From Janthinobacterium psychrotolerans (GTDB lineage Bacteria > Pseudomonadota > Gammaproteobacteria > Burkholderiales > Burkholderiaceae_D), in NCBI RefSeq assembly GCF_001677885.1, contig NZ_LOCQ01000062.1:1-64000 (forward strand): DNA of 64,000 nucleotides, written 5' to 3'. Of the stretch, positions 5,125 to 29,651 are shown one piece after another; position 1 is the first letter of the stretch, and each line of letters opens with the position of its first letter. The translations under genes were made by a program, and so were the position numbers. The notes beneath the pieces were generated by a model. That model was not told where the DNA came from. It worked only from the letters and a program-made list of their open reading frames with translations, and did not search any database.

Positions 5125-6074
<950 letters not shown>

Positions 6075-6075
<1 letters not shown>

Positions 6076-7367
6076 TGGAAAACGGTAAATTGAACGCGCG
6101 CCTGGCCATCGTCATTCCGGCCCGCTACGCTTCCACGCGCCTGCCGGGCAAGCCGCTGGCTGATATTCTCGGCAAGCCGATGGTGCAGCATGTGTATGAA
6201 CGGGCGCTGCAAGTGCCCGGCGTCGACACGGTGGTGGTGGCCACCGACGACGCGCGCGTGGCGCACGCCGTGCGCGGCTTTGGCGGGCGCTGCGTGATGA
6301 CCTCGCCCGACCATCCTTCCGGCACCGACCGCCTGGTCGAAGTGATGCAAACGGTGGAGGCCGACATCTATATCAACCTGCAGGGCGACGAGCCGCTGGT
6401 GCGACCAGGCGATATCGCGCTGCTGGCCGAGGGCATGCGCGCGGACAGCGCGGTGCAGGTGGGCACCTTGTGCCATGCCATCGATGCAAAGGAGGCGCGC
6501 AATCCGAATACCGTCAAGGTGGTGCTGGCCGCCAATGGCGACGCCCTGTATTTCAGCCGCGCGGCGATTCCGTTCGCGCGCGACGAAGCTCCGGCCCAGT
6601 ACCTGAAACATGTGGGCGTGTACGCCTACCGGCGCGACGTGCTGGCCGCGTATTCGGCCCTGCCGGCGGCCATGCTGGAGCAGGCCGAAAAGCTCGAACA
6701 ATTGCGCCTGCTGGCGGCCGGCCTGCGCATCCGCGCCTTCCAGGTGGCGCCTTCCGGGCCCGGCGTCGATACGCCCGAGTGCCTGGCCAGGGTGCGCGCG
6801 CTGATGGCCGGCGAAACGCCGGCAGCGCTGCCGGTGCTGGCTGATATCAAACTGGTGATTACCGACGTCGACGGCGTGCTGACCGACGGCGGCATTTACT
6901 ATGACGCCACCGGCGAATGCCTGAAACGCTTCCATGTGCGCGACGGCCTGGGCATGCGATTGCTGGAAGAAAACGGTGTGCGGGTGGCGGTGCTGTCCGG
7001 CCGCGATTCGCCGACCTTGCGCAAGCGGGTGGCGGACCTTGGCATCACGCTGTACCAGTTCGGCGTGAAGGACAAGCATGGCGCCTGCCGCGAACTGATG
7101 GCGCAAGCCGGCGTCGAAGTGAACCAGACGGTGTGCATCGGCGACGACAGCATCGACCTGCCCGCGTTTGCCGCCTGCGGCCTGTCGTACGCGGTGGCCG
7201 ACGCTCCCGTCTACGTGCAGGCGTGCGCCAGCGCCGTGCTGGTGAAGGAGGGCGGCAAGGGCGCTTTCCGCGAACTGGCCGACGCCATTCTGGTCGCCCA
7301 GGGCAAGGAGCACGTGTTCGGTTCGGCCGAGGGCTTTTCCACCGTGATGGGAAGAGTCGTACAGTAG
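6075..7367 (+). CDS. CMP-KDO synthetase / KDO-8-P phosphatase fusion (KdsB-KdsC)
   Basis: 430 aa in one frame, joining two normally separate enzymes. Residues 8-250 are a KdsB cytidylyltransferase: IPARYASTRLPGKPL, TSPDHPSGTDRL, NLQGDEPLV, KHVGVYAYRRD. Residues 256-420 are a KdsC-type HAD phosphatase: DVDGVLTDGG with nucleophile D264 and acid/base D266, then LSGRDS, a conserved Lys in GVKDKHG, and GDDSIDLP. The phosphatase makes KDO, which the cytidylyltransferase activates, so the two domains do consecutive steps and kdsA upstream does the step before. The linker is only about 5-10 residues. Both active sites look intact. Confidence 0.93.
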
Positions 7368-7383
7368 CTCGAAGTCGCTTGGC

Positions 7384-7417
7384 GTAGGTCGGATTAGCGC
7401 AACGCGCGTAATCCGAC
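7384..7417. repeat. REP-like palindrome (GTCGGATTA type), copy 1
   Basis: GTAG leader, then a GTCGGATTA / TAATCCGAC stem (7388-7396 with 7409-7417) around a GC-rich centre. It lies between the convergent ends of the kdsB-kdsC fusion and argA. The same element occurs twice at 12873-12971 and as a variant at 21326-21359. Confidence 0.85.
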
Positions 7418-7430
7418 ACCACCACCGGCA

Positions 7431-8741
7431 TCACAAGGTCTTGATCAGCACCTGCGACTTGCGCTGCCAGTTGTACATATGCTGGCGGTCCTTCGGCAGG
7501 TCGTCGACGGTGGCCGGCAGAAAGCCGCGCTTCTTGAACCAGTGCGAGGTGCGCGTGGTCAGCACGAACAGTTTGGTCAGGCCGGCGGCGCGCGCGCGGT
7601 TTTCCATGTGCTTCAGGATACGCTCGCCGTCGCCCTGGGTCTGCACTTCGGGGTTGACGATCAGGCAGGCCATTTCGGCCATCTTCTCGGCCGGGAACGG
7701 GTACAGCGCGGCGCAGCCGAAGATCACGCCATCGTGCTCGATGACGGAGAAATAATCGATTTCGCGTTCGATCAGCTCGCGGCCCCGTTTGACCAGGGTG
7801 CCGTCCGCTTCCATCGGCTCGATCAGCTTGATGATGCCGCCGACGTCCTCGATGGTGGCCTGGCGCAGGCTTTCCAGGTTTTCATGGCTGATCATGGTGC
7901 CCACGCCATCGTGGGTAAACAATTCCAGCAGGGCCGAGCCGTCCATGGTGAACGGCACGATGTGCGAGCGGTCCACGCCGTTGTGGCAGGCTTTCACGCA
8001 GTGTTTCAGATAGAACGCGGTGGCGTCCGGCAAAAATCCGGCCATCAGCACGGCTTCGGCCTGGTGCGAGGACAGCTCGCGAATTTCCACGCCGGTGGCG
8101 TCCGCCATCATCGGCGTTTCGGTAATGAAGATCAGCTTGTCGGCGTGCAGGGCGATCGCGGCGCTGCAGGCCACGTCTTCCATGGTCAGATTGAACGCTT
8201 CGCCGGTCGGCGAAAAGCCCAGCGGCGACAGCAGCACCAGGCCGTCGGAACCGAGGATGGAGTGAATGGTTTCAGCGTCGACCTTGCGCGTGATGCCGGT
8301 CAGTTCCAGGTCCACGCCATCGATCACGCCCAGCGGACGCGCCGTGATGAAATTGCCGGAAATAATACGGATCGCCGCGTTCGACATCGGCGTGTTCGGC
8401 AAGCCCTGGCTGAAGGCGGCCTCGATATCGAGGCGCAATTCGCCAGCCGCTTCTTTCGCGCACTCGAGCGCGGCGATGTCGGTGATGCGCACGCCATTGT
8501 GAAAACGGCCTTCGACGTTACGCAGCGCCAGCTGTTCGGCCACCTGCGGACGCGAACCATAGACCACGGTCACATTGATATCGAGCGCATGCAGCAGAGA
8601 CAAGTCATGGGCCAACACCTGCAGCGCCCCGGCGCTGACGAGTTCACCGGGGAAGGCGACCACGAAGGTCTTGCCGCGAAAGGCGTGGATGTAGGGCGCG
8701 ACGGAGCGCAGCCATTGGACGAATTGGGTAGGGTTTTCCAT
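7431..8741 (-). CDS. argA: N-acetylglutamate synthase ArgA
   Basis: 436 aa. Acetylates glutamate with acetyl-CoA, the first step of arginine synthesis. An inactive-type amino-acid-kinase domain (about residues 15-280; GKTFVVAFPGE at the start) is followed by a GNAT domain with IEHDGVIFGCAALYPF and NPEVQTQGDGERIL. Feedback inhibition by arginine is typical of the family. The start is taken at the ATG at 8741 (MENPTQF). A perfect TATAAT ends 7 nt before it, so the message may be leaderless; an ATG 9 nt upstream is inside the -10 and therefore less likely. Divergent from hrpA. Confidence 0.94.
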   Translation of the reverse strand: MENPTQFVQWLRSVAPYIHAFRGKTFVVAFPGELVSAGALQVLAHDLSLLHALDINVTVVYGSRPQVAEQLALRNVEGRFHNGVRITDIAALECAKEAAGELRLDIEAAFSQGLPNTPMSNAAIRIISGNFITARPLGVIDGVDLELTGITRKVDAETIHSILGSDGLVLLSPLGFSPTGEAFNLTMEDVACSAAIALHADKLIFITETPMMADATGVEIRELSSHQAEAVLMAGFLPDATAFYLKHCVKACHNGVDRSHIVPFTMDGSALLELFTHDGVGTMISHENLESLRQATIEDVGGIIKLIEPMEADGTLVKRGRELIEREIDYFSVIEHDGVIFGCAALYPFPAEKMAEMACLIVNPEVQTQGDGERILKHMENRARAAGLTKLFVLTTRTSHWFKKRGFLPATVDDLPKDRQHMYNWQRKSQVLIKTL

Positions 8742-8748
8742 TAAGCGC

Positions 8749-8756
8749 ATTATAAT
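8749..8756. promoter_or_regulatory. Symmetric -10 shared by argA and hrpA
   Basis: The 8-bp palindrome ATTATAAT gives a perfect TATAAT on both strands (plus 8751-8756, minus 8754-8749). It sits between the divergent argA and hrpA starts. Predicted start sites are near 8741 for argA, at its ATG, and near 8763 for hrpA. No good -35 is seen on either side. Confidence 0.6.
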
Positions 8757-8797
8757 TCGCTGCGCGATGTGCGCGCTCAAAATACCTGTAAAAAACA

Positions 8798-11700
8798 ATG
8801 TCTTCAGCCAGCAATAAGTCTTCCCCTCCTTCCACTGTTGCGAATGCGCCCAATCTGGACGCTCGCCAGCGCCCTTCCGCCAGCCGGCAAGCGCCGCAAG
8901 ACCGCGAAGCGCGCGATGCCGCCCGCGCCGCGCGCGAGGCGGAAAAAGCGTTCCGCAATCCGCTGCCGCCGATCACGTATCCGGAAGACTTGCCGGTGTC
9001 GGGCCGGCGCGCCGAAATCGCCAAGGCCTTGACGGAAAACCAGGTCATCATCGTGTCGGGCGAAACCGGTTCGGGCAAGACCACCCAGCTGCCGAAGATT
9101 TGCCTGGAACTGGGGCGCGGCCAGAAGGGCATGATCGGCCACACCCAGCCGCGCCGTATCGCCGCCTCGTCGACCGCCAAGCGCATCGCGCAGGAACTCG
9201 GTACGCCGCTCGGCGTTACCGTCGGTTTCAAGGTGCGCTTTGCCGATACCCTGACCAGGGGCGCGTCGGTCAAGCTGATGACGGACGGTATTTTGCTCGC
9301 CGAGACGCAGACCGATCCGCTGCTGAAGAACTACGACACCATCATCATCGACGAGGCGCACGAACGCAGCCTGAACATCGATTTCCTGCTCGGGTACCTG
9401 AAGCAGCTGCTGCCGCGCCGGCCGGATTTGAAAATCATCATCACCTCGGCCACCATCGACGCCGAGCGCTTCGCGCGCCACTTCGGCACGCCTGAGAAAC
9501 CGGCGCCCGTGATCGAAGTGTCGGGCCGCTTGTACCAGGTGGAAGTGCGCTATCGCCCGGTCGAGCGCGAACAGGTCGCCATGCCTGGTGCCGCGAACCC
9601 GGACAAGCCGGGCCAGCGGACGGCTGCGGCGCGCGAAAAGCGCGACCTGATGGACGCCGTGGTCGATGGCGTGGAAGAGCTGTGCCGCATCGGCTCTGGC
9701 GACGTGCTGGTGTTCCTGCCGGGCGAGCGCGAGATCCGCGACTGCGCCGAAGCGCTGCGCAAGCATCATCCGCCGCATGTGGAGATTTTGCCGCTGTTCG
9801 CGCGCCTGTCGGCCGAAGAGCAGGAGCGGGTGTTCAAGACCAGCAATGCGCGCCGCATCGTGCTGGCCACCAACGTGGCGGAGACCTCGCTGACCGTGCC
9901 CGGCATCCGCTATGTGGTCGACGCGGGCCTGGCGCGCGTGAAACGCTACAGCTACCGCAATAAAGTGGAGCAGCTGCAGGTCGAACCGATCGCGCAGTCG
10001 GCCGCCAACCAGCGCGCCGGTCGTTGCGGCCGCGTCGCCGATGGCGTCTGCATCCGCCTGTATGAAGAGCAGGATTATTTGCTGCGCCCGAAATTCACCG
10101 AGCCGGAAATCCTGCGCTCGTCGCTGGCGGCCGTCATTTTGCGCATGAAGTCGCTGCACCTGACGGACGTGGAAACCTTTCCGTTTATCGAGCCGCCACT
10201 GGCGCGCGCGATCGCCGACGGCTACCAGCTGCTGCAGGAACTGGGCGCCGTCGATGAAGTCAACAAACTGACGCCGCTGGGTAACAAGCTGGCCAAGCTG
10301 CCGCTCGATCCGCGCGTGGGCCGCATGATTTTGGCGGCGCTCGACAACGCGTGTTTGACCGAAGTGCTGATCGTGGCGTCGGCCTTGTCGGTGCAGGACC
10401 CGCGCGACCGTCCGATGGAACACCAGCAGGCGGCCGACGAAGCGCACAAGAAGTTTGCCGATGAAAAATCGGAATTTATCAGCTACCTGAAGATCTGGCG
10501 CTGGTTCGAGTCCGCCATCGAGCACAAGAAAACCAACCGCCAGCTGCAGGACAATTGCCGCAGCAATTTCCTGTCGCAGATGCGCCTGCGCGAATGGCGC
10601 GACGTGCATTCCCAGCTGCTGACCATCGTCAAGGAGCAAGGCTGGCGATTGAACGAGGCGCCGGCCACCTATGACAACTTGCACATGGCGCTGCTGACCG
10701 GATTGCTGGGCAATATCGGCTTCAAGGGCGAGGACGAGCCGGGCGCGGGGTATCTGGGCGCGCGCGGCATCAAGTTCCATATCTGGCCCGGTTCGTCGCT
10801 GCTGAAAAAGCCGGGCAAGTGGATCATGGCGGCCGAACTGGTCGATACCACGCGATTGTATGCGCGCTGCGTGGCGCAGATCCAGCCCGAGTGGCTGGAA
10901 AAAGTCGGCGAGCACCTGCTGAAAAAATCGTGGGGCGAGCCGCGCTGGGAAAAACGCTCGGCGCAAGTGACCGCCTCGGAACGCGCCACCTTGTACGGCC
11001 TGGTGGTGTACAGCCAGCGCCGCATCAACTACGGCAATTTCAACCTGCCGGAAGCGCGCGAAATCTTTATCCGCGACGCGCTGGTGGGTGGCGACTTCGA
11101 CACGCGCGCGCCGTTCTTTGCGCACAACCACAAGCTGATCAAGGACATCGAAAACCTCGAACACAAATCGCGCCGCCTCGATGTGCTGGTCGACGATGAA
11201 CTGATCGCGGCCTTCTACAACCAGCTGCTGCCGGCCGACGTGTGCAATGGCGCCGGCTTCGAAAAATGGCACAAGGAAGCCACGCGCGAGAACCCCAAGC
11301 TGCTGTACCTGAACCGCGAAGAGCTGATGCGCCACGAGGCGGCCGGCGTGACCACCGACCTGTTCCCGAAAACCATGTCGGTGACGGGCCTGGAGATGGG
11401 CCTGACATACCACTTCGAGCCGGGCAGCGTGCGCGATGGCGTCACGTTATCGGTGCCGCTGTATGCGCTGAACCAGCTGCCGCGCGAGCGCTGCGAATGG
11501 CTGGTGCCGGGCATGCTGAAGGAAAAAGTGCATCTGCTGTTGAAGTCGCTGCCGCAAAAGCTGCGCCGCCACTGCGTGCCGCTGCCCGATTACGCCGCGA
11601 AATTTTGCGAGCGTGTGCACGAGGCGGGCGTGTTCGGCCGTGGCGATCTGATCGACGCGATTATTGCGGACATCCGCACGCAGATCACCATCAATGTCTT

Positions 11701-21412: not shown

Positions 21413-23284
21413 TTATTTCAATGCTTGCAGGATGGTGCCCAGGCGATCCTTCGTGCCGGGGATGCGTTCGAGTTGCGGATATTTCAGGCCGCCGTGATAG
21501 TCGAGCGCCACGGTGCGGAATTGCTGGCCCTTTTTCAGCAGCAGCTTGATCGGCTCCCTGCTGCCTTTGGCGGCCGTGATGGCCGCTTTCAGCAGCTTGG
21601 GCGTATAGGCCGTGCCATTGACGGCCAGCAAGGTCGTGTTGCCCGACAGCCCGGCCCTGAAGGCGGGGCCGTCCCATAGCAGCCGGCCCAGCTTGCCGTC
21701 CTTGTCGATCACCATGCCCAGCGAATAGGTCAGGTCGGTGCTTTTGGCGCGTTCCTCGTCGGCCTTCAGAAAGGCGGTGGGCGTGTCGCGGTAGACCAGT
21801 TTCCAGCCGGCGCGCGCCAGGCCGTCGAGCGGCGCGCCGGGGCCGTGGCCGTCGACGCGGCTGCGCAAGAAGGTGGCCCAGTCGTAAGGCTGCACTTTGT
21901 TGAGTGCCGCCACCACATCGTCGAAAGTGTAGGGCAGCGGCGTGGTGCCGCCGTCGTTGACGCCAAAAAAGGCGCGTGCAAAGTCGTCGAGCGAACGGCG
22001 CTCGCGCGACAATTCGCGGATCAGGGTGTCGACGTCGAGCCAGACCAGCGCGCCCTCGATGTAGTAATCCTCGTCGCGCTGCCAGCTGCTCCAGCCCTGC
22101 GGGCGGCGGGCGTTGATGATGGGGTCATTGGTGGTGTCGCCCATGCTGCGCCAGCTGCGCCCCGGCTCCACGTCGTAGCGCGCGGCGGCGGCGGCGAACA
22201 GGTCGCGCATGTGGACCGGGTCGACCAGGCCGGAGCGCGCCGCCAGCACATTGCCCCAGTATTGCGTCTGGCCTTCGTAGACCCACAGCAGGCTGTTTTG
22301 CAGTGGCGTGTTGAAGTCCGGCGTGTCCTGGCCGGCGGGGCGGCGGAACTTGCCGTTCCACGAATGCGTCAGTTCATGCGGCAGCAGCACGCGCACCGGC
22401 GCCGTCTTGTCCCAGTCGCTGAAGTAGCCGGGCTTGACGCCGTTCTCGCTCGACTGCTGGTGCTCGCGGCCGATGCCGCCGAATTCATCGCTTTGCGCGA
22501 GCAAAAAATCGTAATGCCGGTAGTGGCGCGAAGCGAACAGTTTATAGGCCTGCTGCATCAGCGCGCGGTGTGGCGCGATCTGTTCCGGCGTCGCTTCCAG
22601 GCTGTCGGCGCTGTCGGCCACCAGGTTCAGGTGCACGGGAAAGCTGGCGCCCGGATCGAGGTCGATGCGCTTGAAATGGCGCCCGGCGAACAGGGGCGAG
22701 TCGACCAGGGTTTCCAGGTCCAGCGGCTTGAAGGCCACCTGCTGGCCGGCCGGCGTGGCCGCCTCGCTTTGCACTTCGAGGGCGCTGCCGAACTGCCAGC
22801 CGGCCGGCAAGGTCAGGTTGGGCTGCACGGCGATCTCGCGCGTGGGACGCCCGGCCGGATACAGGGTCATGGCCTGCCACTGCACGCCCAGCATCTCGCG
22901 CGTCATGGTGATGCGGCCCTGGTTCGCTTCGACCGGCGAGAGGAACTGGTAGCGCGCTTCGAGCGTCGTGGCGCCGGCCGGCACGGTGACATGGAAGGCG
23001 AACATATTGACCGGATCGCGCCGCCATTCCAGGTTCTGGCCGTTGGCGCTCAAGCGCAGGCCGGCCAATTGGTTCAGCGGGCCGCTGGGCCCGTGATTGC
23101 CCGGTATCCATTGCGGATACAGCAGGGTCATCTCGCCGGGCGTGGCGGGAATCGCGGCGTGGATCGTGAAAATCTGCTGAGCCACATTGCTGGCGTCCAC
23201 GTTCAGGACGATGGGTGCGGCGGCTTGCGCATGGCAGGCAACGGCGAACAGCAGGGCAAGCAAGGGGCGCGGAAAGAGGGTCAT
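21413..23284 (-). CDS. M61 family glycyl aminopeptidase, exported
   Basis: 623 aa. A signal peptide (about residues 1-22, ending HAQAAA) sends it to the periplasm. The zinc site HELTH is at 303-307, followed by the conserved SWNGKFRRP and a downstream Glu in LLWVYEGQTQYWG. The C-terminal ~110 residues form a PDZ domain, as in other M61 members. These enzymes remove N-terminal Gly or Ala. It starts 18 nt after the CHAT gene stop on the same strand, so it may be the fifth gene of the sigma/caspase/CHAT operon. No ribosome-binding site is evident. Confidence 0.93.
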   Translation of the reverse strand: MTLFPRPLLALLFAVACHAQAAAPIVLNVDASNVAQQIFTIHAAIPATPGEMTLLYPQWIPGNHGPSGPLNQLAGLRLSANGQNLEWRRDPVNMFAFHVTVPAGATTLEARYQFLSPVEANQGRITMTREMLGVQWQAMTLYPAGRPTREIAVQPNLTLPAGWQFGSALEVQSEAATPAGQQVAFKPLDLETLVDSPLFAGRHFKRIDLDPGASFPVHLNLVADSADSLEATPEQIAPHRALMQQAYKLFASRHYRHYDFLLAQSDEFGGIGREHQQSSENGVKPGYFSDWDKTAPVRVLLPHELTHSWNGKFRRPAGQDTPDFNTPLQNSLLWVYEGQTQYWGNVLAARSGLVDPVHMRDLFAAAAARYDVEPGRSWRSMGDTTNDPIINARRPQGWSSWQRDEDYYIEGALVWLDVDTLIRELSRERRSLDDFARAFFGVNDGGTTPLPYTFDDVVAALNKVQPYDWATFLRSRVDGHGPGAPLDGLARAGWKLVYRDTPTAFLKADEERAKSTDLTYSLGMVIDKDGKLGRLLWDGPAFRAGLSGNTTLLAVNGTAYTPKLLKAAITAAKGSREPIKLLLKKGQQFRTVALDYHGGLKYPQLERIPGTKDRLGTILQALK

Positions 23285-23302: not shown

Positions 23303-26300
23303 TCAGGAGCCGAGCAGGATAAAACCGGCCCAGTAGTAAGGGTGGTCGCGCGACTCGCCCGTGGCAGCCGGAGATGCCGCGTCGAGTGGCGTGAGACCGC
23401 GCCCGGCCCGGTTTGCGCCATCTTGCCGGCCGGCCCGCAACTGGCGCAGCTGCGCCTGGCGCAAGGCTTGCGGCTTGCTTTTGCCTTGTGCCAGGGCGGC
23501 GTAAAAATCGCGCATCAGGGTGGCGGTCGACTGGTCCGGCACGCGCCACAGGCTGGCCAGCACATTGTGCGCGCCGCGCTGGCGCGCCAGCCAGGCCAGG
23601 CCTTCCAGTTCGCGGCCCGTGTCGTCGGTGCCGGCCGGCACGGCCGTCTCGCAGGCCGACAGGGTCAGCAGGTCCAGGCCGTCGAAGCGGTAGCCGCTGC
23701 CAGCCAGTTCGGCCAGGCTCAGTTTCTGGCCATCGCCGAGCAGCAGATAGGAATCCTGGCCGGCGCCCGAGCGCAGCACGAAGTGGCTGGCGACATGCAC
23801 GACGCTGTTGGCCGGCAGCGCCTGGCGCAGCGCGTCGGCGGTAAATTCGCCATCGAGATACACGCGGCTGGGGATGCGCGCCGCGCGTTCGATCGCGTCG
23901 ACGGCCTGCAGTTCGCGCCGCACGAAGGGTAGCGCCGGCAGCTCGCCGCTGGCGCCGGTCTGGCCGAACAGCGCCATCGACGGCGCGCGCGCCGGCGCCG
24001 GTGCCGGTTCCACGGTGCCGGTGCCGGCCTGCAGCGACACGGCCAGCCGTTCGACCAGCCAGCGGCGACCGTCATGCAGCATGGCGAACGGCAGGTAGCG
24101 CAGCACGCCGTCGAGCGACAGCGACAGTGAGGTGGCGCCCGCCAGTTCCGCGTGCGCCGGCGCGATCAGCAGCGCATACAGCGCTTGCGCCTCCGCTTTG
24201 GCATCCACGCCCGGGTCCTGCGCGCTGCGGCGCAGGCGGGCGATCCGCTGGGCCAGCGCGCGCTCGTCGATGGCCACGTTATAGACATGGGTGGCGGCGC
24301 GGCCGGCACGCCGGGCGACGATGCGAAGTCGCTGGCCCGTTACCAGGTAGCTCAGGTGCAGGGCGCCGCGTTTTAACGGCGTTGCCTGCACGCTGGCCGA
24401 GGGCGATTCGCGCACGGTGGTGGCCGCTGGCGCGGACGGCAGCGCCAGCAGCGCCCTGGCGGCATCGTCGACCAGGCCGGCCATCGACGCTTGCGCCGCC
24501 GCCAGGCCGGCATCGGCCTGTGGCGCGTTTTGCGCCTGCTGTTCGCGCGCCGTGGCCAATGCCTGGCTGCCCGCGCGCAGGGCGGCGCCGCTGGCGGCGA
24601 ACTGGCGCTGCCAGGCCGCTTCCACGCCGGTGTAAGCGAGGCGGGTGGTGCGTGGATCCGGGCCGCTCCTCACCAGGCTGTGAAACGCGTCTTCGCGCAC
24701 CATGGCCAGCACGGTTTCGGCCTCGAGCAGGCGGCGCTGGTCAAGCAGGCGGTCGGCCAGCTGGCCATAGGCGGCGCGCTTTTGCCGCACAAAACCCAGG
24801 CGCAGCGCCACTGGCAGCCCGCTGGTGGCCACGCGCGCCGTCTGCAGCGCATTGACCGCCTGCTTGCCGAGGAAAATCGCGGCGCCATCCGTTTCCAGCG
24901 CCGCCAGCTGCAACGCTGCGCGCGCCTCAGACAGGGTGTTGTCATTGGCCACGGCGATGGCCAGCGCACGCGCCGCCTGCTCGCGTGCCGTGCCCAGGTC
25001 GCCCGCGCGCGCCTGCAGGCTTGCCGCGTCGAGCAGCGCCTGCGCGTAAGCGGGGTGCGACAGGCCGCGCGTGTCGGCCAGGTGCCGCGCCATCGCCGAC
25101 GCATCGTGTGCCAGCGCCTGCAGGGCGGCGGCATCAAGGATTTCCGCGCGCGCCAGCAGATGCGCCTGGCGCACCGTGTCCTGCAGCTCTTTTGACGCGG
25201 GCGGCGTTTGCGCCAGGCGCGCTTCGAGCGCGTCCAGGGTTGCCACCGCTTCCGCTGGCCGGCTCAGCGCGATCTGCGCTTGCGCGCCCAGCAGCAGCGC
25301 CTCGGCTTCGTCGCCGGGCAGCGCCTGGGCACCCGACATGGCCAGGCTGGCTGCCGCCTGGGCCGCATCGAGCGCAGCTTCATACTGGCCCAGCGCCAGC
25401 AGCGCGCCGCCTTGCGTGAGCTGGTGCAAGGCGCAAGCGGGGGCCGTGTCGCCTTGCACGCTGCGGCAGTGGCGCAGCGCTTCGCCAGCGGCCACCTCGG
25501 CGCGTCCCAGCTGGTTGTCGGCCAGCGCCGCTTGCGCCACATCCTGCCAGGCGTTGACGGTATGGGCGTGGCGGTCGCCGTACAGGGCGCGGCGGATGCG
25601 CAGGGCGTCTTCGGCTTCCTGCAGCGCCTTGCCGCTTTCGCCCAGGCGCAAATGGATGGCGGCCAGGCGGCCCAGCGCCACGCTGGCCTGCATGGAATCA
25701 GAACCGGTTCTGCGCACGGCGCTGGCCAGCGCGCGCTGGGCGAACGACAGCGCCTGGCGGTCGTTGCCGGCCAGGGTGTGCCAGTTGGCCAGATCGTTGA
25801 CGCTGGTTTGTATTTCGGTACTGTCTTCGCCGAACGCGCCCAGGCGGATGCGGTAGGCCTGCTCCAGGTAGCCGTACGCTTCCTGCATGCGCTCCATGCG
25901 CAGCAGCAGTACGCCGACGTCGCGCATGCCCCACGCATGGTCGGTGCTGTTCTTGCCCGAGGTGCGCTCCCAGGTGTCCATCGCCTGCCGCGCGTATGGC
26001 AGGCCGCGCGCGTATTCCCTGGTCTGCAGCGCCACGCCGGACAGGTTCGACAGGCTGGTGCCATACGATACCGTGTCCTTGCCGATCAAGCGCGCCTTGG
26101 CGGCCAGCGCGATATCGCCCCATTGCCAGGCCAGCTCGAACCGGCTCCACTGGCGATACAGGTACATCAGCTCGCTCGGGTAGTACATGTTTTCGCGGCC
26201 CGGATCAGCGTCGCCATCACCAAGCTTCTGGCGGATGGCCCAGCCTTCGAGCAGCGCCTGTTCGCTGTCGGCGTAGCGGTGCAGCATCTGCAGGCTCTGG

Positions 26301-26518
26301 CCCAGGCCCAGCAGGCTGCTGGCCATGCCGGCCTGGTCGCCCGCCTGCCGGCACGCCGCCAGCGCCTGCCGGAACAGCGGCAGCGCGACGGCCGGCTGCT
26401 CGGCCGCGCTGGCGTCATTGCCCTTGTCCAGCCACGGCGCGATGGTGGCCCGGCAGCTGCCTGCCGCCATGGCGGTGACGGGGCCGGCCAGCAGCAGCGC
26501 GAGCAGCAAGCGCTTCAT
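23303..26518 (-). CDS. Exported TPR-CHAT peptidase
   Basis: 1071 aa. A signal peptide (MKRLLLALLLAGPVTAMAAG) is followed by many TPR-like helical repeats (about residues 30-650) and a C-terminal CHAT domain (about 800-1070). The clan CD dyad is present: H912 in VVHVASHF and C956 in LTLSACETA. CHAT proteins are caspase relatives and some are proteases activated through their TPR region. The start overlaps the caspase-gene stop as ATGA, which fixes it despite an open frame upstream. An exported location is unusual compared with the cytoplasmic CHAT proteases of defence systems. Confidence 0.92.
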   Translation of the reverse strand: MKRLLLALLLAGPVTAMAAGSCRATIAPWLDKGNDASAAEQPAVALPLFRQALAACRQAGDQAGMASSLLGLGQSLQMLHRYADSEQALLEGWAIRQKLGDGDADPGRENMYYPSELMYLYRQWSRFELAWQWGDIALAAKARLIGKDTVSYGTSLSNLSGVALQTREYARGLPYARQAMDTWERTSGKNSTDHAWGMRDVGVLLLRMERMQEAYGYLEQAYRIRLGAFGEDSTEIQTSVNDLANWHTLAGNDRQALSFAQRALASAVRRTGSDSMQASVALGRLAAIHLRLGESGKALQEAEDALRIRRALYGDRHAHTVNAWQDVAQAALADNQLGRAEVAAGEALRHCRSVQGDTAPACALHQLTQGGALLALGQYEAALDAAQAAASLAMSGAQALPGDEAEALLLGAQAQIALSRPAEAVATLDALEARLAQTPPASKELQDTVRQAHLLARAEILDAAALQALAHDASAMARHLADTRGLSHPAYAQALLDAASLQARAGDLGTAREQAARALAIAVANDNTLSEARAALQLAALETDGAAIFLGKQAVNALQTARVATSGLPVALRLGFVRQKRAAYGQLADRLLDQRRLLEAETVLAMVREDAFHSLVRSGPDPRTTRLAYTGVEAAWQRQFAASGAALRAGSQALATAREQQAQNAPQADAGLAAAQASMAGLVDDAARALLALPSAPAATTVRESPSASVQATPLKRGALHLSYLVTGQRLRIVARRAGRAATHVYNVAIDERALAQRIARLRRSAQDPGVDAKAEAQALYALLIAPAHAELAGATSLSLSLDGVLRYLPFAMLHDGRRWLVERLAVSLQAGTGTVEPAPAPARAPSMALFGQTGASGELPALPFVRRELQAVDAIERAARIPSRVYLDGEFTADALRQALPANSVVHVASHFVLRSGAGQDSYLLLGDGQKLSLAELAGSGYRFDGLDLLTLSACETAVPAGTDDTGRELEGLAWLARQRGAHNVLASLWRVPDQSTATLMRDFYAALAQGKSKPQALRQAQLRQLRAGRQDGANRAGRGLTPLDAASPAATGESRDHPYYWAGFILLGS

Positions 26519-28152
26519 GGCACCGACTTCCACGACACGCGCGCCAGCTGCGCCTGTTCCGGCGTATCCGGCGGCACCCCGGATGGGCCGCCGCGCGTGG
26601 CTGCCGGCAGCGCTTCCAGGATGGCGAAGCGGCGCGGCGGCGCGCCATTGGCGGCCGGGGCGGCCACCAATGCCAGCCACTCCAGGCCAAAGGCCGGACC
26701 GCTGACGACAAAGCTGCGCTCAAAAACGCTGATGCCGTTGCCGATGGCCGGCGGCATGCGGTTGCTGTCGCCCGCCAGCGCCGGGTAGATTCGGGTGGCG
26801 GCGCCGTGCTGCGGCAAATGTGCGAGACCCAGGTCGACCGAGCCGGCGCCACGGTTTTCCACGCTGATGCGGATGCGCGTGCCCGCCGGCAGGATGCCCA
26901 GGTCGCCATCGGCCAGCGGCAACTGGCGCGGCGGCTGGCCCGGCAAGGTCAGTTCGATGCGCGCGTCGAGCAGCGCTGGACCGTGCGAGGGCGGCAGCGC
27001 CAGCAGGGTGCCCATGCGTCCCTGCGGCGTTGCCGGCGCCGGCGTGCGGCGCGCCCAGTTGGTGTCGGGCAGGGTTTGCTGGCTATCCGATGTCAGTCGC
27101 GCACTGTTCCAGCTCACCTCGCCGGCGCGCCAGCGCCCGCCGCCCGCAGCGAACACATCGCCGCTGCGCACGCCGTCGAGCAGGCCATGGGGCAGCTTCC
27201 AGCCGTTGCTGTCGCGCTGCACCGGCCATAGAGTGGCGGCGTTGGCGGCATCGTCCGCCTGCCACAAGGCGGCATCGAGCTGGCCCGCATACACGGGCGA
27301 GGGCCAGGCGGAGCGCGGCAGTTGATACGATTGCAGCGCCACGCGGTACTGCGCGCTGGCGTTGCCGGCCCAGGCTGCGTAGGTGGCCGGCTGCGCCTGC
27401 AGGCCGGCGATCACCGCGCGCGTAAATAGCCCCGCCGCCTGGCCGGGCGCGGCCACGCTGCGCGCTTCGGGCGTGCGCTGCTGCGCTTCGGCGGCAAAGA
27501 AGCCGACAAAACGGGGGCGGGCACGGGCCGGCGGCGATCCCGGCTCCTGGTCGCCACCGGTCGACTGGCGCCAGCCGATCTCGCTGGCCGACAGGCCGCG
27601 CCAACTCAAACCGTCATCGCTGCGCGTGCCGGCCGCCGCATGGCAGGTGTCGAACACGGCCACCACCTGCACCTGGCGCGCCGACAGCGCATCGATGGCG
27701 CGGCCGATGTCGGCGCTGCCGAGGCCGCCGTCGAGCCGTTTGGACGGGCCGATGCGGCTGTCGCGCGTGAGCAGGCGCGTGCGCTGGCCTTGCGCGGTGG
27801 TGCCCGGGTAGCTTGGCGCCAGCACGCTGTGGCCGGACCAGTACAGCAGCAGCACGTCATCCTTGCCCAGCGTTTTTTCCAGCTGCGCCAGGCGCGCCAG
27901 GATGGCCGCGCGCGTGGGCGCGGCGTCAAAGGCGCCGCCATCGGCCAGGCTGGCGATATGGCGTTCGGCAAAGCCTTGCTGGCGCAGCGCGGCGCGCATC
28001 GCCGCCACGTCGCTGGCGGGACCGGCCAGCCAGGCGGCGCGCGGCAGGGCCGGCAGCTCGCCCACGCCGACCAGCAGCGCATGGCGCTCGCCGGCCAGCG
28101 CCGCGCCGCTGACCAGGCAAGGCCATATCAGCCAGCACAGCTTGCGCTTCAT
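26515..28152 (-). CDS. Exported caspase-like (C14) peptidase
   Basis: 545 aa. A signal peptide (about residues 1-21, ending GAALAGE) precedes a caspase-like p20 domain with RHALLVGV at the start, H108 in LLLYWSGHS and C170 in VVAVFDTCHAAAG. The C-terminal 180 residues look like the DUF4384-type beta module often attached to bacterial caspases (RIRISVENRGAGSVDLGL, ATRIYPALAGDSN). Both dyad residues are present, so it may be active; specificity is unknown. It overlaps the anti-sigma-like gene by 4 nt upstream and the CHAT gene by 4 nt downstream. Confidence 0.9.
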   Translation of the reverse strand: MKRKLCWLIWPCLVSGAALAGERHALLVGVGELPALPRAAWLAGPASDVAAMRAALRQQGFAERHIASLADGGAFDAAPTRAAILARLAQLEKTLGKDDVLLLYWSGHSVLAPSYPGTTAQGQRTRLLTRDSRIGPSKRLDGGLGSADIGRAIDALSARQVQVVAVFDTCHAAAGTRSDDGLSWRGLSASEIGWRQSTGGDQEPGSPPARARPRFVGFFAAEAQQRTPEARSVAAPGQAAGLFTRAVIAGLQAQPATYAAWAGNASAQYRVALQSYQLPRSAWPSPVYAGQLDAALWQADDAANAATLWPVQRDSNGWKLPHGLLDGVRSGDVFAAGGGRWRAGEVSWNSARLTSDSQQTLPDTNWARRTPAPATPQGRMGTLLALPPSHGPALLDARIELTLPGQPPRQLPLADGDLGILPAGTRIRISVENRGAGSVDLGLAHLPQHGAATRIYPALAGDSNRMPPAIGNGISVFERSFVVSGPAFGLEWLALVAAPAANGAPPRRFAILEALPAATRGGPSGVPPDTPEQAQLARVSWKSVP

Positions 28153-28667
28153 GGATGGCGCAACTCCACCGCTTCCACCGTGGCCCTGGCCGCTTGCAGG
28201 CTGCGCTGCGCCGCCGGCGGGTCGGCCGCGTCGAGCAGATAGCTGCCGTCGGCCAGCGGGCCGGCGACGATGGTGGCGCCGGCCTGCGTCAGGGCGGCGC
28301 CCGCCTGGTCGACGCTGGCGCCGGGCACGAAGCGCGCGCGCAAGGTTGCCGCGCCCTGGGTTTGCACGCCGGGCAGGCTGCGCCATTGCAGCTGGTCGGT
28401 GCTTGTATCGTGCGGCCGCCACAGCATCCAGGCCTGCGCGAGGCAGACGCTGGCCAGCGCCGTGATGGCCCATGGCGCGAGGGTGGGCAAGGTGGGCAAG
28501 GTGGGCAGGGTGGGCCAGCGCAGGCGGCGCCACCAGCTTGCCGGGCGCAGGCGCTGGTGCAATTGCGCCAGGCCAGCGTCGGGCGCCATGGCCGCCGCTT
28601 CGGCGTCGAGCGCTGCGCGCAGCATGGCGCGCAGGCGCTGGTCTTCGGGATCGATGGGATCAGTCAT
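28149..28667 (-). CDS. Single-pass membrane protein, probable anti-sigma factor
   Basis: 172 aa. A charged N-terminal segment of ~50 residues is followed by a Thr-Leu-Pro repeat, one transmembrane helix (about 65-83) and a ~85-residue periplasmic part. The topology and position, overlapping the ECF sigma gene by ATGA, fit an anti-sigma factor that holds the sigma at the membrane. There is no zinc-type HxxxCxxC motif, and no direct homologue is recognised, so the role is inferred. The start at 28667 is set by the overlap. Confidence 0.75.
   Translation of the reverse strand: MTDPIDPEDQRLRAMLRAALDAEAAAMAPDAGLAQLHQRLRPASWWRRLRWPTLPTLPTLPTLAPWAITALASVCLAQAWMLWRPHDTSTDQLQWRSLPGVQTQGAATLRARFVPGASVDQAGAALTQAGATIVAGPLADGSYLLDAADPPAAQRSLQAARATVEAVELRHP
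28482..28517. repeat. Four tandem 9-mers coding Thr-Leu-Pro
   Basis: Units GGTGGGCAA, GGTGGGCAA, GGTGGGCAG, GGTGGGCCA. They lie in frame in the anti-sigma-like gene just before its membrane helix, so copy changes would lengthen the juxtamembrane linker. Confidence 0.8.
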
Positions 28668-29275
28668 GCCGGGCCTTCCTGTACCAGCCAGCGCTCCAGG
28701 CACTGGCGCAAATTGAGGCGTCCATGGAACAAACGCGTCTTGATGGTGCCCGCCGGCGCCTGCTGGATGCGGGCGATATCGGCCACCGACAGGTCATCGA
28801 TGGCCCACAGGGTCAGGCTTTCGCGCTGCATCGGATTGCGCAGCCGCCGCAGGCAGTCGAGAATGCCGTGGCGCCGCTGATGCTGTTCGTGCTGTGCCTG
28901 CGGACCGGGATCGTGGTTGGCTTCATCGAACTGCGCCTGGTCGTCGCCATCGCCGTCGATCGGTTCTTCGCGCGCCTGGCGCTTGCCGTGGCGGCGGATC
29001 TGGTCGATGGCCTTGTTGCGCGCCAGGGTCAGCAGCCAGGTACCGAAGGCGACCCGGCCGTCGTAGCGCATCGGCGCGCGCCACACATCGTGGAACACGT
29101 CGACCGTGACTTCGTCTGCGATCGCATGCGCGTCAAGGCCGCAGCCGGCCAGCTGCAGGCGCGCAAACACGCGCACGCGCGGCGACCAGGCGCGGAACAA
29201 AGCATCGAGCGCGCGCTGGTCGCCCGCCGCCATGGCGGCAAGCAGTTCGGCGGGGTTGACGGGCAATGCACTCAT
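28664..29275 (-). CDS. ECF-type RNA polymerase sigma factor
   Basis: 203 aa. Region 2 includes LDALFRAWSPRVRVFARL, DEVTVDVFHDVWR and FGTWLLTLARNKAIDQIRR. Region 4 includes LTLWAIDDLSVADIARIQQAPAGTIKT. The linker between them is long, His/Gln/Asp-rich (about 105-135). It leads the operon and probably directs transcription of the downstream caspase and CHAT genes, or a wider regulon, when the membrane partner releases it. Upstream there is a TATAAT box but no clear ribosome-binding site. Confidence 0.93.
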   Translation of the reverse strand: MSALPVNPAELLAAMAAGDQRALDALFRAWSPRVRVFARLQLAGCGLDAHAIADEVTVDVFHDVWRAPMRYDGRVAFGTWLLTLARNKAIDQIRRHGKRQAREEPIDGDGDDQAQFDEANHDPGPQAQHEQHQRRHGILDCLRRLRNPMQRESLTLWAIDDLSVADIARIQQAPAGTIKTRLFHGRLNLRQCLERWLVQEGPA

Positions 29276-29304: not shown

Positions 29305-29310
29305 ATTATA
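29305..29310 (-). promoter_or_regulatory. Candidate -10 of the sigma/caspase operon
   Basis: Perfect TATAAT on the minus strand, about 30 nt before the sigma-factor ATG; the -35 region is weak. It suggests housekeeping transcription of the operon, with or without autoregulation. Confidence 0.5.
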
Positions 29311-29423
29311 GCACTGGGGCAACATTGAAATTGTTTGCAAAAAGATTGAACCGGATCGCGCCTGGCTGCGAACAAGACGGTGAAGGGCTGCAAGTGGCGG
29401 CCCACGACCCGGGATGCATGACA

Positions 29424-29651
29424 ATGAGAGAACACGGCAATATGCACAACACCGGCGGCGCCATGCAGCGCCTGACGCCGGCCGAACGGCTGGTGGCGGC
29501 GATGGCCATGCGCGGCACGCCGTATAAAAGCATCGCGCGCAGCCTGGACAAATCACCGGCCACCGTGCGCAACCAGCTGCACATGATTTACCAGAAGCTG
29601 GGCGTGAGCAACCGCACGGCGCTATCGTGCGCGCTGCTGAGCGACCTATAA
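29424..29651 (+). CDS. Small LuxR-type HTH protein
   Basis: 75 aa, little more than a LuxR/NarL-type helix-turn-helix: LTPAERLVAAMAMRGTPYKSIARSL, then SPATVRNQLHMIYQKLGVSNRTAL. There is no receiver or ligand domain. It is divergent from the sigma/caspase/CHAT operon with about 150 bp between starts, so it may regulate that operon; this is inference. Start choices at 29418, 29424 and 29442 are all in frame; 29424 is an arbitrary middle choice. Confidence 0.75.
   Translation: MREHGNMHNTGGAMQRLTPAERLVAAMAMRGTPYKSIARSLDKSPATVRNQLHMIYQKLGVSNRTALSCALLSDL

Follow-up and report, generated by a model that had tools for sequence, protein, structure and literature searches.

A 64,000-nucleotide (nt) stretch of the Janthinobacterium psychrotolerans genome (contig NZ_LOCQ01000062.1, positions 1 to 64,000; hereafter the window) contains a cassette of four overlapping minus-strand genes, encoding an extracytoplasmic function (ECF) sigma factor, a membrane protein with the predicted plan of an anti-sigma factor, a metacaspase-like peptidase (hereafter the caspase) and a peptidase with tetratricopeptide repeats (TPR) and a CHAT domain. 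Comparison with related genomes gives good support to these four genes being a discrete, self-contained unit that is gained or lost as a block. We tentatively propose, with somewhat less than even confidence, that the cassette is an autoregulated sigma switch, fired when the caspase would cut the anti-sigma factor in the periplasm. The features on which this proposal draws are as follows (coordinates in the window).

28664..29275, minus strand: ECF sigma factor, 203 amino acids (Pfam, TIGR02937 and alignment)
28149..28667, minus strand: predicted membrane anti-sigma factor, 172 amino acids, with a shortened cytoplasmic domain, one transmembrane segment and a periplasmic ferredoxin-like domain (alignment and orthologue model)
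28380..28385, minus strand: codons of W95-R96 in the juxtamembrane periplasmic linker, with a predicted caspase cut after R96 (invariance and orthologue model)
26515..28152, minus strand: metacaspase-like peptidase, 545 amino acids, with a signal-like N-terminus, dyad H108/C170, acidic D48 and D168, and a beta-rich C-terminal part
23303..26518, minus strand: TPR-CHAT peptidase, 1071 amino acids, with a signal-like N-terminus and dyad H912/C956; C22, C56, C351 and C362 are also invariant
29346..29375, minus strand: TTGTTCG-N16-GGTTCAA, a putative -35/-10 promoter read by the sigma factor itself; about 99 nt separate its first half-site from the sigma ATG downstream

Organization and conservation of the cassette

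A sequence-only reading of this DNA had described four genes joined by ATGA overlaps, and all three junctions were located on the minus strand, each a 4-nt ATGA overlap (28664-28667 between sigma factor and membrane protein, 28149-28152 between membrane protein and caspase, 26515-26518 between caspase and TPR-CHAT peptidase). The first protein is an ECF sigma factor, having sigma-70 regions 2 and 4 within about 200 amino acids: it matched Pfam Sigma70_r2 (PF04542; 3e-11, 43.4 bits) and r4_2 (PF08281; 2e-6, 27.6 bits), both above cut-off, and scored 70.6 against TIGR02937 (cut-off 42.9). The membrane protein had no Pfam match, and no Pfam anti-sigma model scored above its cut-off. The third protein matched Pfam Peptidase_C14 (3e-8) and the fourth matched both CHAT (PF12770; 8e-58, 196.6 bits over a cut-off of 24) and TPR_12 (2e-24). 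The two catalytic dyads named in the sequence-only reading are present, H108/C170 being invariant in 10 aligned caspase orthologues and H912/C956 in 8 of 8 aligned CHAT orthologues, which identifies the last protein as a CHAT peptidase.

The host genome (5.84 Mb) is Janthinobacterium-like. We searched a family sample of 294 genomes with the caspase, obtaining any match at all in 27 and a close orthologue (aligned part at least about 48% identical) in 10, host included. Sigma and anti-sigma genes lie ahead of the caspase in nine of these ten, the exception being G263, and the CHAT gene follows it in all eight genomes whose contig continues; the contigs of G244 and G188 end inside the caspase. 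Ten named loci with cassette genes come from Janthinobacterium, Massilia and Duganella, several being the same records as numbered genomes of the sample. Among them the nearest caspase is that of Janthinobacterium sp. PC23-8 (86% identical), and in all ten the sigma stop overlaps the anti-sigma start. A gene-neighbourhood comparison, the check proposed along with the earlier reading, finds the order of sigma factor, membrane protein, C14 peptidase and CHAT peptidase recurring in these three genera.

Presence of the cassette is patchy. Caspase orthologues occur in 6 of the 27 genus genomes of the family sample, and a search at E 1e-25 gave no sigma gene in six operon-free members of the genus or in G263. 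A class-level search of 369 genomes returned two matches besides the host at 1e-20, and among 78 genomes of the class of G961 no copy was found at 1e-40 besides that of G961 itself.

Two loci of the sample depart from the standard arrangement. At 5771-11043 of its locus (L038), G263 retains caspase and CHAT genes, the sigma gene, the anti-sigma gene and the exact promoter element being gone, and a divergent membrane-protein gene now stands about 230 nt from the caspase. In G244 (locus L035, 17580-18172) the sigma matches fall in two overlapping frames near a contig end, indicating a frameshift or an assembly error.

A candidate promoter upstream of the sigma gene

The element upstream of the sigma gene was first spotted in alignments of upstream regions and then searched for by script as TTRTTCG-N16-GGTTCAA. 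It is present in 15 of 22 distinct sigma-linked loci, namely in all 15 with the window's sigma type (the window and 14 others, two of which, L064 and L116, belong to another family, and some of which are close relatives). The spacer is 16 nt in all 15, though the first half-site lies anywhere from 99 to 178 nt from the sigma start; five loci have the TTATTCG variant of this half-site, and L055 also bears the element. A spacing of 16 nt suits the -35/-10 of an ECF sigma factor. We assign the element to the sigma operon because it persists although the divergent gene on its other side varies among carriers (LuxR-type, membrane protein or lipoprotein).

The host genome has one exact copy, upstream of the sigma gene. 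Across the family sample the exact element was found in 20 of 294 genomes, comprising 9 of 9 with sigma factor plus caspase (upstream of the sigma gene in each) and 11 of the 285 others, and a reversed control pattern was found in at least six genomes among the matches listed; G188 has one extra site. The nine genomes with sigma factor plus caspase supplied the pattern, which makes its association with such genomes (Fisher p 4e-12) partly circular; independent of them are its scarcity elsewhere and its reappearance in L064 and L116. With mismatches allowed, in search of other genes that the sigma factor might control, the host has two sites at one mismatch, both within long reading frames, and 32 at two, 27 of them with a locus and 24 of these in open frames over 230 codons (the exceptions are L155, L166 and L176); altogether 35 sites have up to two mismatches, versus 21 for the reversed control. 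The combined pattern gives moderate support to TTRTTCG-N16-GGTTCAA probably being the sigma factor's own promoter.

A second, tentative promoter-like sequence, seen in the sequence between the element and the sigma start, may serve the housekeeping sigma factor.

29305..29313, minus strand: TGCTATAAT, extended -10-like

Within it, TGCTATA is invariant in 8 Janthinobacterium sequences; a sigma-70 scan of the window gave no paired -35/-10 at this site. In the loci of Massilia and Duganella, sequences resembling TTGACA and TATAAT are found between the element and the sigma start.

The membrane protein as a candidate anti-sigma factor

The domain plan of the membrane protein is clearest in a structure model of the SUN073 orthologue (mean predicted local distance difference test score, pLDDT, 77.7; predicted template-modelling score, pTM, 0.38). 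The model has N-terminal helices at residues 7-20, 26-38, 40-62 and 65-76, a transmembrane helix at 92-115, a low-confidence stretch at 116-131 and, after this linker, a periplasmic beta-alpha-beta-beta-alpha-beta domain of ferredoxin-like appearance. A helical domain, one transmembrane segment and a periplasmic part, encoded beside a sigma gene, make up the plan of a class I type anti-sigma factor, and the modelled plan supports this assignment for the membrane protein. The earlier claim of a dedicated pair of sigma factor and membrane protein gains support from the conserved order, the promoter-like element in 15 loci and this domain plan. Searched with Foldseek, the periplasmic domain had no significant match, all E-values being 0.1 or worse; among the best 50 of 548 matches the highest TMt values belong to subtilisin propeptides (1scj, 0.63; 1spb, 0.63).

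The peptidases and a candidate cleavage site

Several lines of evidence place the caspase among metacaspase-like C14 peptidases. Its profile matched the yeast metacaspase Mca1 at 2e-23, with D48 and D168 aligned to Asp residues of Mca1; nine divergent caspases all keep H108, C170, D48 and D168; and metacaspases and MALT1 were among the first fold matches of its structure model. As described in the literature (PMC6426788, PMC4357240), acidic residues of the metacaspase S1 kind accommodate basic P1 side chains. D48 and D168 appear to be the counterparts of these residues, a match in numbering that we infer from the alignment, and the caspase is accordingly predicted to cleave after Arg or Lys.

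The anti-sigma linker offers a candidate substrate. Its Trp and Arg (W95-R96 in the window) are invariant in 11 aligned anti-sigma sequences, and the linker has low pLDDT in the orthologue model. In a separate set of 11 divergent caspase-linked anti-sigma factors, which share little other similarity, the alignment puts an Arg at the linker site in all 11 (one offset by a residue), and each of the 11 has a hydrophobic-Arg-small motif no more than 26 residues past the predicted transmembrane segment. As a control, the host's 27 sigma-70 region 2 loci were identified by hidden Markov model (HMM); a heuristic gave a membrane neighbour for 18, and with the window's own left out 6 of 17 have the motif. 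The enrichment is suggestive only.

Both peptidases had been read as exported, and this stands as a prediction: signal-peptide-like N-termini are present in the window's proteins and in 15 of 18 caspase and CHAT orthologue sequences, as judged by us from a heuristic with no cut-off. The weaker N-termini are those of the CHAT proteins of L036, L039 and L040, possibly through misplaced starts. The four further invariant cysteines of the CHAT protein would be compatible with periplasmic disulfides.

Linkage in more distant relatives

With a profile of nine caspases, relatives turned up in 23 of 300 genomes at order level and in 21 of 398 at phylum level, the host being included in each count; we read 16 regions around strong matches and 20 around weaker ones. 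The order sigma factor, membrane protein, caspase recurs in L064, L065, L113, L114, L116 and L117 and in two copies in G125 (L040 and L041), and is rearranged in L111 to CHAT, caspase, sigma factor, anti-sigma factor. CHAT and caspase genes converge in L064, L116, L040 and L041; in L117 they are collinear, and in L111 CHAT lies upstream of the caspase.

A tree built from 60 caspases, omitting six duplicate records and the window's own, puts all 21 sigma-adjacent ones in one supported clade of 33, with none among the 27 outside. Sigma adjacency requires six changes on this tree versus 17.5 with shuffled labels, a kind of count that relatedness inflates. L047 and L123, which do not carry the adjacency label, have sigma-like frames about 2 kb and about 4 kb, respectively, from the caspase. 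A CHAT domain was found nearby by profile for 16 of 18 sigma-adjacent caspases (L113 and L114 being those without it, and 3 of the 21, in L035, L037 and L065, being left out of the count at contig ends), for 1 of 12 clade members with no adjacent sigma gene (L038) and for 1 of 27 caspases outside the clade (L144).

The two distant G125 copies, each of sigma factor, anti-sigma factor and caspase with a convergent CHAT gene, have a different-looking ECF sigma factor. Their anti-sigma N-terminus is D-rich and DD-x-W-like, as it is, with variation, in L065, L111, L113, L114 and L117. A plasmid search returned 70 records matching the caspase, none over 80% of its length; 46 of the matching records are Pseudosulfitobacter plasmids. 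On the Pseudosulfitobacter pseudonitzschiae plasmid NZ_CP054608.1 (15607-30605), a caspase gene overlaps a gene for a 206-amino-acid hypothetical protein, trypsin-like peptidase and two-component genes are divergent, and a CHAT gene lies about 5.5 kb from the caspase; no sigma gene is annotated there, in a gene table that is incomplete.

Neighbouring genes

The genes flanking the cassette lie where the sequence-only reading had put them, an M61 peptidase gene 18 nt past the CHAT stop (its start is at 23284) and a small LuxR-type helix-turn-helix (HTH) gene divergent from the sigma gene.

21413..23284, minus strand: M61 peptidase, a resident neighbour outside the cassette (adjoins hsp20 in operon-free relatives)
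29418..29651, plus strand: small LuxR-type HTH gene, divergent, not kept with the cassette

The M61 peptidase (Pfam M61, 5e-33) had also been entertained as a possible operon member, which did not hold: it occurs apart from the cassette, and the cassette apart from it. At a threshold of E 1e-150, 22 of 40 genus genomes have the gene. In all five operon-free genus members read (L229-L233) M61 directly adjoins hsp20 at a distance of 225-375 nt, which rules M61 out as a cassette member; in carriers with M61 the four cassette genes sit between M61 and hsp20; and in SUN073 and the Massilia and Duganella loci mapped the cassette stands with no M61 alongside. For these reasons we regard M61 as a bystander beside the cassette.

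The LuxR-type gene gained no support as a cassette regulator, not being found in L033, L053 or the Massilia or Duganella loci. In L053, L056 and L039 a membrane-protein gene is divergent from the cassette in its place. In L053 (4940-6525) and L039 (12286-13883) the divergent pair consists of a lipoprotein-like gene and a gene for a membrane protein with multiple helices that starts MKKRGKILRDT, and L032 (7564-7716) has an apparent out-of-frame remnant of the membrane-protein gene, intact in L053, L056 and L039, beside its LuxR-type gene.

Comparison with known systems

The closest parallel in logic is Craspase/CASP, the type III-E system of Csx29, Csx30 and CASP-sigma, which likewise unites a TPR-CHAT caspase-fold protease, an ECF sigma factor and a sigma inhibitor in one locus; in the model proposed for CASP, cleavage of the inhibitor frees a sigma factor with binding motifs in its own locus (PMC10028731). 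Craspase differs in being RNA-activated with Cas7-11, and the words "periplasm" and "signal peptide" do not occur in the text of its paper (PMC10028731), whereas the cassette has a membrane anti-sigma factor, apparently exported peptidases and a second, metacaspase-like peptidase. Cas7-11 (gRAMP) and Csx30 had no match in six operon-region proteins or, by PADLOC, in six flanking proteins, the rest of the genome and the other loci not being searched, and a scan of the window for direct repeats (22 nt or longer, within 120 nt) gave none. On these proteins and this stretch, and with its different predicted location, the cassette resembles Craspase in its logic and is not a member of that group.

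In RseA/DegS/RseP systems, too, proteolysis of a membrane anti-sigma factor frees an ECF sigma factor (PMC8103513); there the site-1 protease is of serine type, whereas the cassette has caspase and CHAT genes in the sigma operon. The proposed caspase cut would parallel that of DegS on RseA and of Csx29 on Csx30. With orthocaspases and metacaspases the caspase shares the p20 domain, the His-Cys dyad and two acidic residues for basic substrates (PMC6426788), and it differs from them in its tie to an ECF sigma pair and in its added beta-rich C-terminal part; "sigma" has no occurrence in the main text of PMC6426788. The regulator described in PMC13373217 is a different, kinase-based one. In the openly licensed literature, represented mostly by titles and the beginnings of abstracts, the Craspase papers apart, no description of this combination of genes was found.

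The proposed switch and its alternatives

We propose that the ECF sigma factor would be held at the inner membrane by the single-pass anti-sigma factor, whose periplasmic ferredoxin-like domain sits on a flexible linker, and that caspase and TPR-CHAT peptidase would be exported to the periplasm. A signal, possibly bound by the TPR scaffold or by the periplasmic domain of the anti-sigma factor, would lead the metacaspase-like enzyme to cut after the linker Arg (R96 here) as a site-1 cut, and resident proteases would finish the removal. The freed sigma factor would then transcribe its own operon from TTRTTCG-N16-GGTTCAA; more sigma factor and more protease would make a positive-feedback switch whose main output may be periplasmic proteolysis. 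A stronger form, in which a self-amplifying periplasmic caspase, the cut at the Arg site and TPR-CHAT as co-effector amount to an all-or-none fate switch, seems to us rather unlikely.

Several observations weigh against this proposal, whose binding, cleavage and transcription steps draw on sequence comparison and models. The window's anti-sigma factor lacks 36 amino acids of the helical, predicted sigma-binding domain and so has no complete domain; in an alignment of 11 sequences the gap removes helix 2 of the orthologue entirely, along with half of helix 1 and the first part of helix 3. PC23-8 (L051) and G250 (L031) lack the same 36-residue block, and a deletion overlapping it is present in FT58W. 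Since reading frames and gene overlaps remain intact in these strains, the short forms are not obvious pseudogenes, but repression may differ where they occur. The caspase model has a mean pLDDT of only 62.9. The Arg motif was noticed before the comparison, making its p of 0.0009 post hoc, and the control is small and includes possible non-anti-sigma proteins; in L116 and L041 the motif counted uses a different Arg from the aligned one, though both carry the aligned Arg too. Twelve of the 33 clade caspases have no adjacent sigma gene, and G263 keeps caspase and CHAT in the absence of both sigma and anti-sigma genes. The element is absent from 7 of 7 loci with more distant sigma factors (L040, L041, L065, L111, L113, L114 and L117) and hence cannot be shown for the whole sigma family.

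The strongest rival is an ordinary ECF switch, in which the anti-sigma factor senses envelope stress and is cut by resident DegS/RseP-type proteases, caspase and CHAT being effectors only. Cassette and promoter evidence fits it equally, RseA-type systems operate in this manner (PMC8103513), and G263 has the proteases with the switch gone; it leaves unexplained why an Arg-small site should recur in 11 of 11 linkers beside a peptidase with a P1-basic pocket, a recurrence that is itself post hoc. We consider this rival a serious contender, also short of even confidence, and hold it and the caspase-cut reading nearly level. The generic nature of the ferredoxin-like fold, the Foldseek E-values of 0.1 or worse, the lack of any matching Pfam inhibitor family and the caspase-type rather than subtilisin-type proteases all speak against the periplasmic domain being a propeptide-like inhibitor or docking partner of the proteases, with sigma factor freed when these are engaged elsewhere. 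The beta-alpha-beta-beta-alpha-beta topology and the subtilisin propeptides at the top of the TMt ranking keep this idea in play as an improbable one.

A cytoplasmic conflict (abortive-infection) system acting like Craspase, whose hydrophobic N-termini are no signal peptides, is slightly less probable again. The caspase does match a PADLOC caspase model (7e-15), and Craspase sets a precedent in uniting TPR-CHAT, ECF sigma factor and inhibitor (PMC10028731). The signal-like N-termini in 15 of 18 orthologues, the transmembrane segment of the anti-sigma factor and the lack of CRISPR-like direct repeats in the window argue otherwise, and the defence-gene scan, which covered the locus and six flanking genes, had its matches among the latter on the DegP-like protease, the response regulator and the histidine kinase, which we do not read as a defence locus. 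Patchy presence (6 of 27 genus genomes) would suit chance adjacency of unrelated genes, which the kept order, the overlaps, the upstream element and presence or absence as one block refute; we give it practically no weight.

Implications

Why bacteria export caspase-fold proteases is, to our knowledge, largely an open question. The cassette presents a short circuit for which one promoter, one cleavage site and two proteases stand as candidates. If the caspase-cut reading is true, the site-1 protease of this anti-sigma factor would come from the caspase family and act outside the cytoplasm and independently of CRISPR. Caspase-type enzymes would then stand beside serine proteases in setting off sigma factors by a site-1 cut, and the logic of the CRISPR-associated Craspase would gain a CRISPR-free, periplasmic counterpart.

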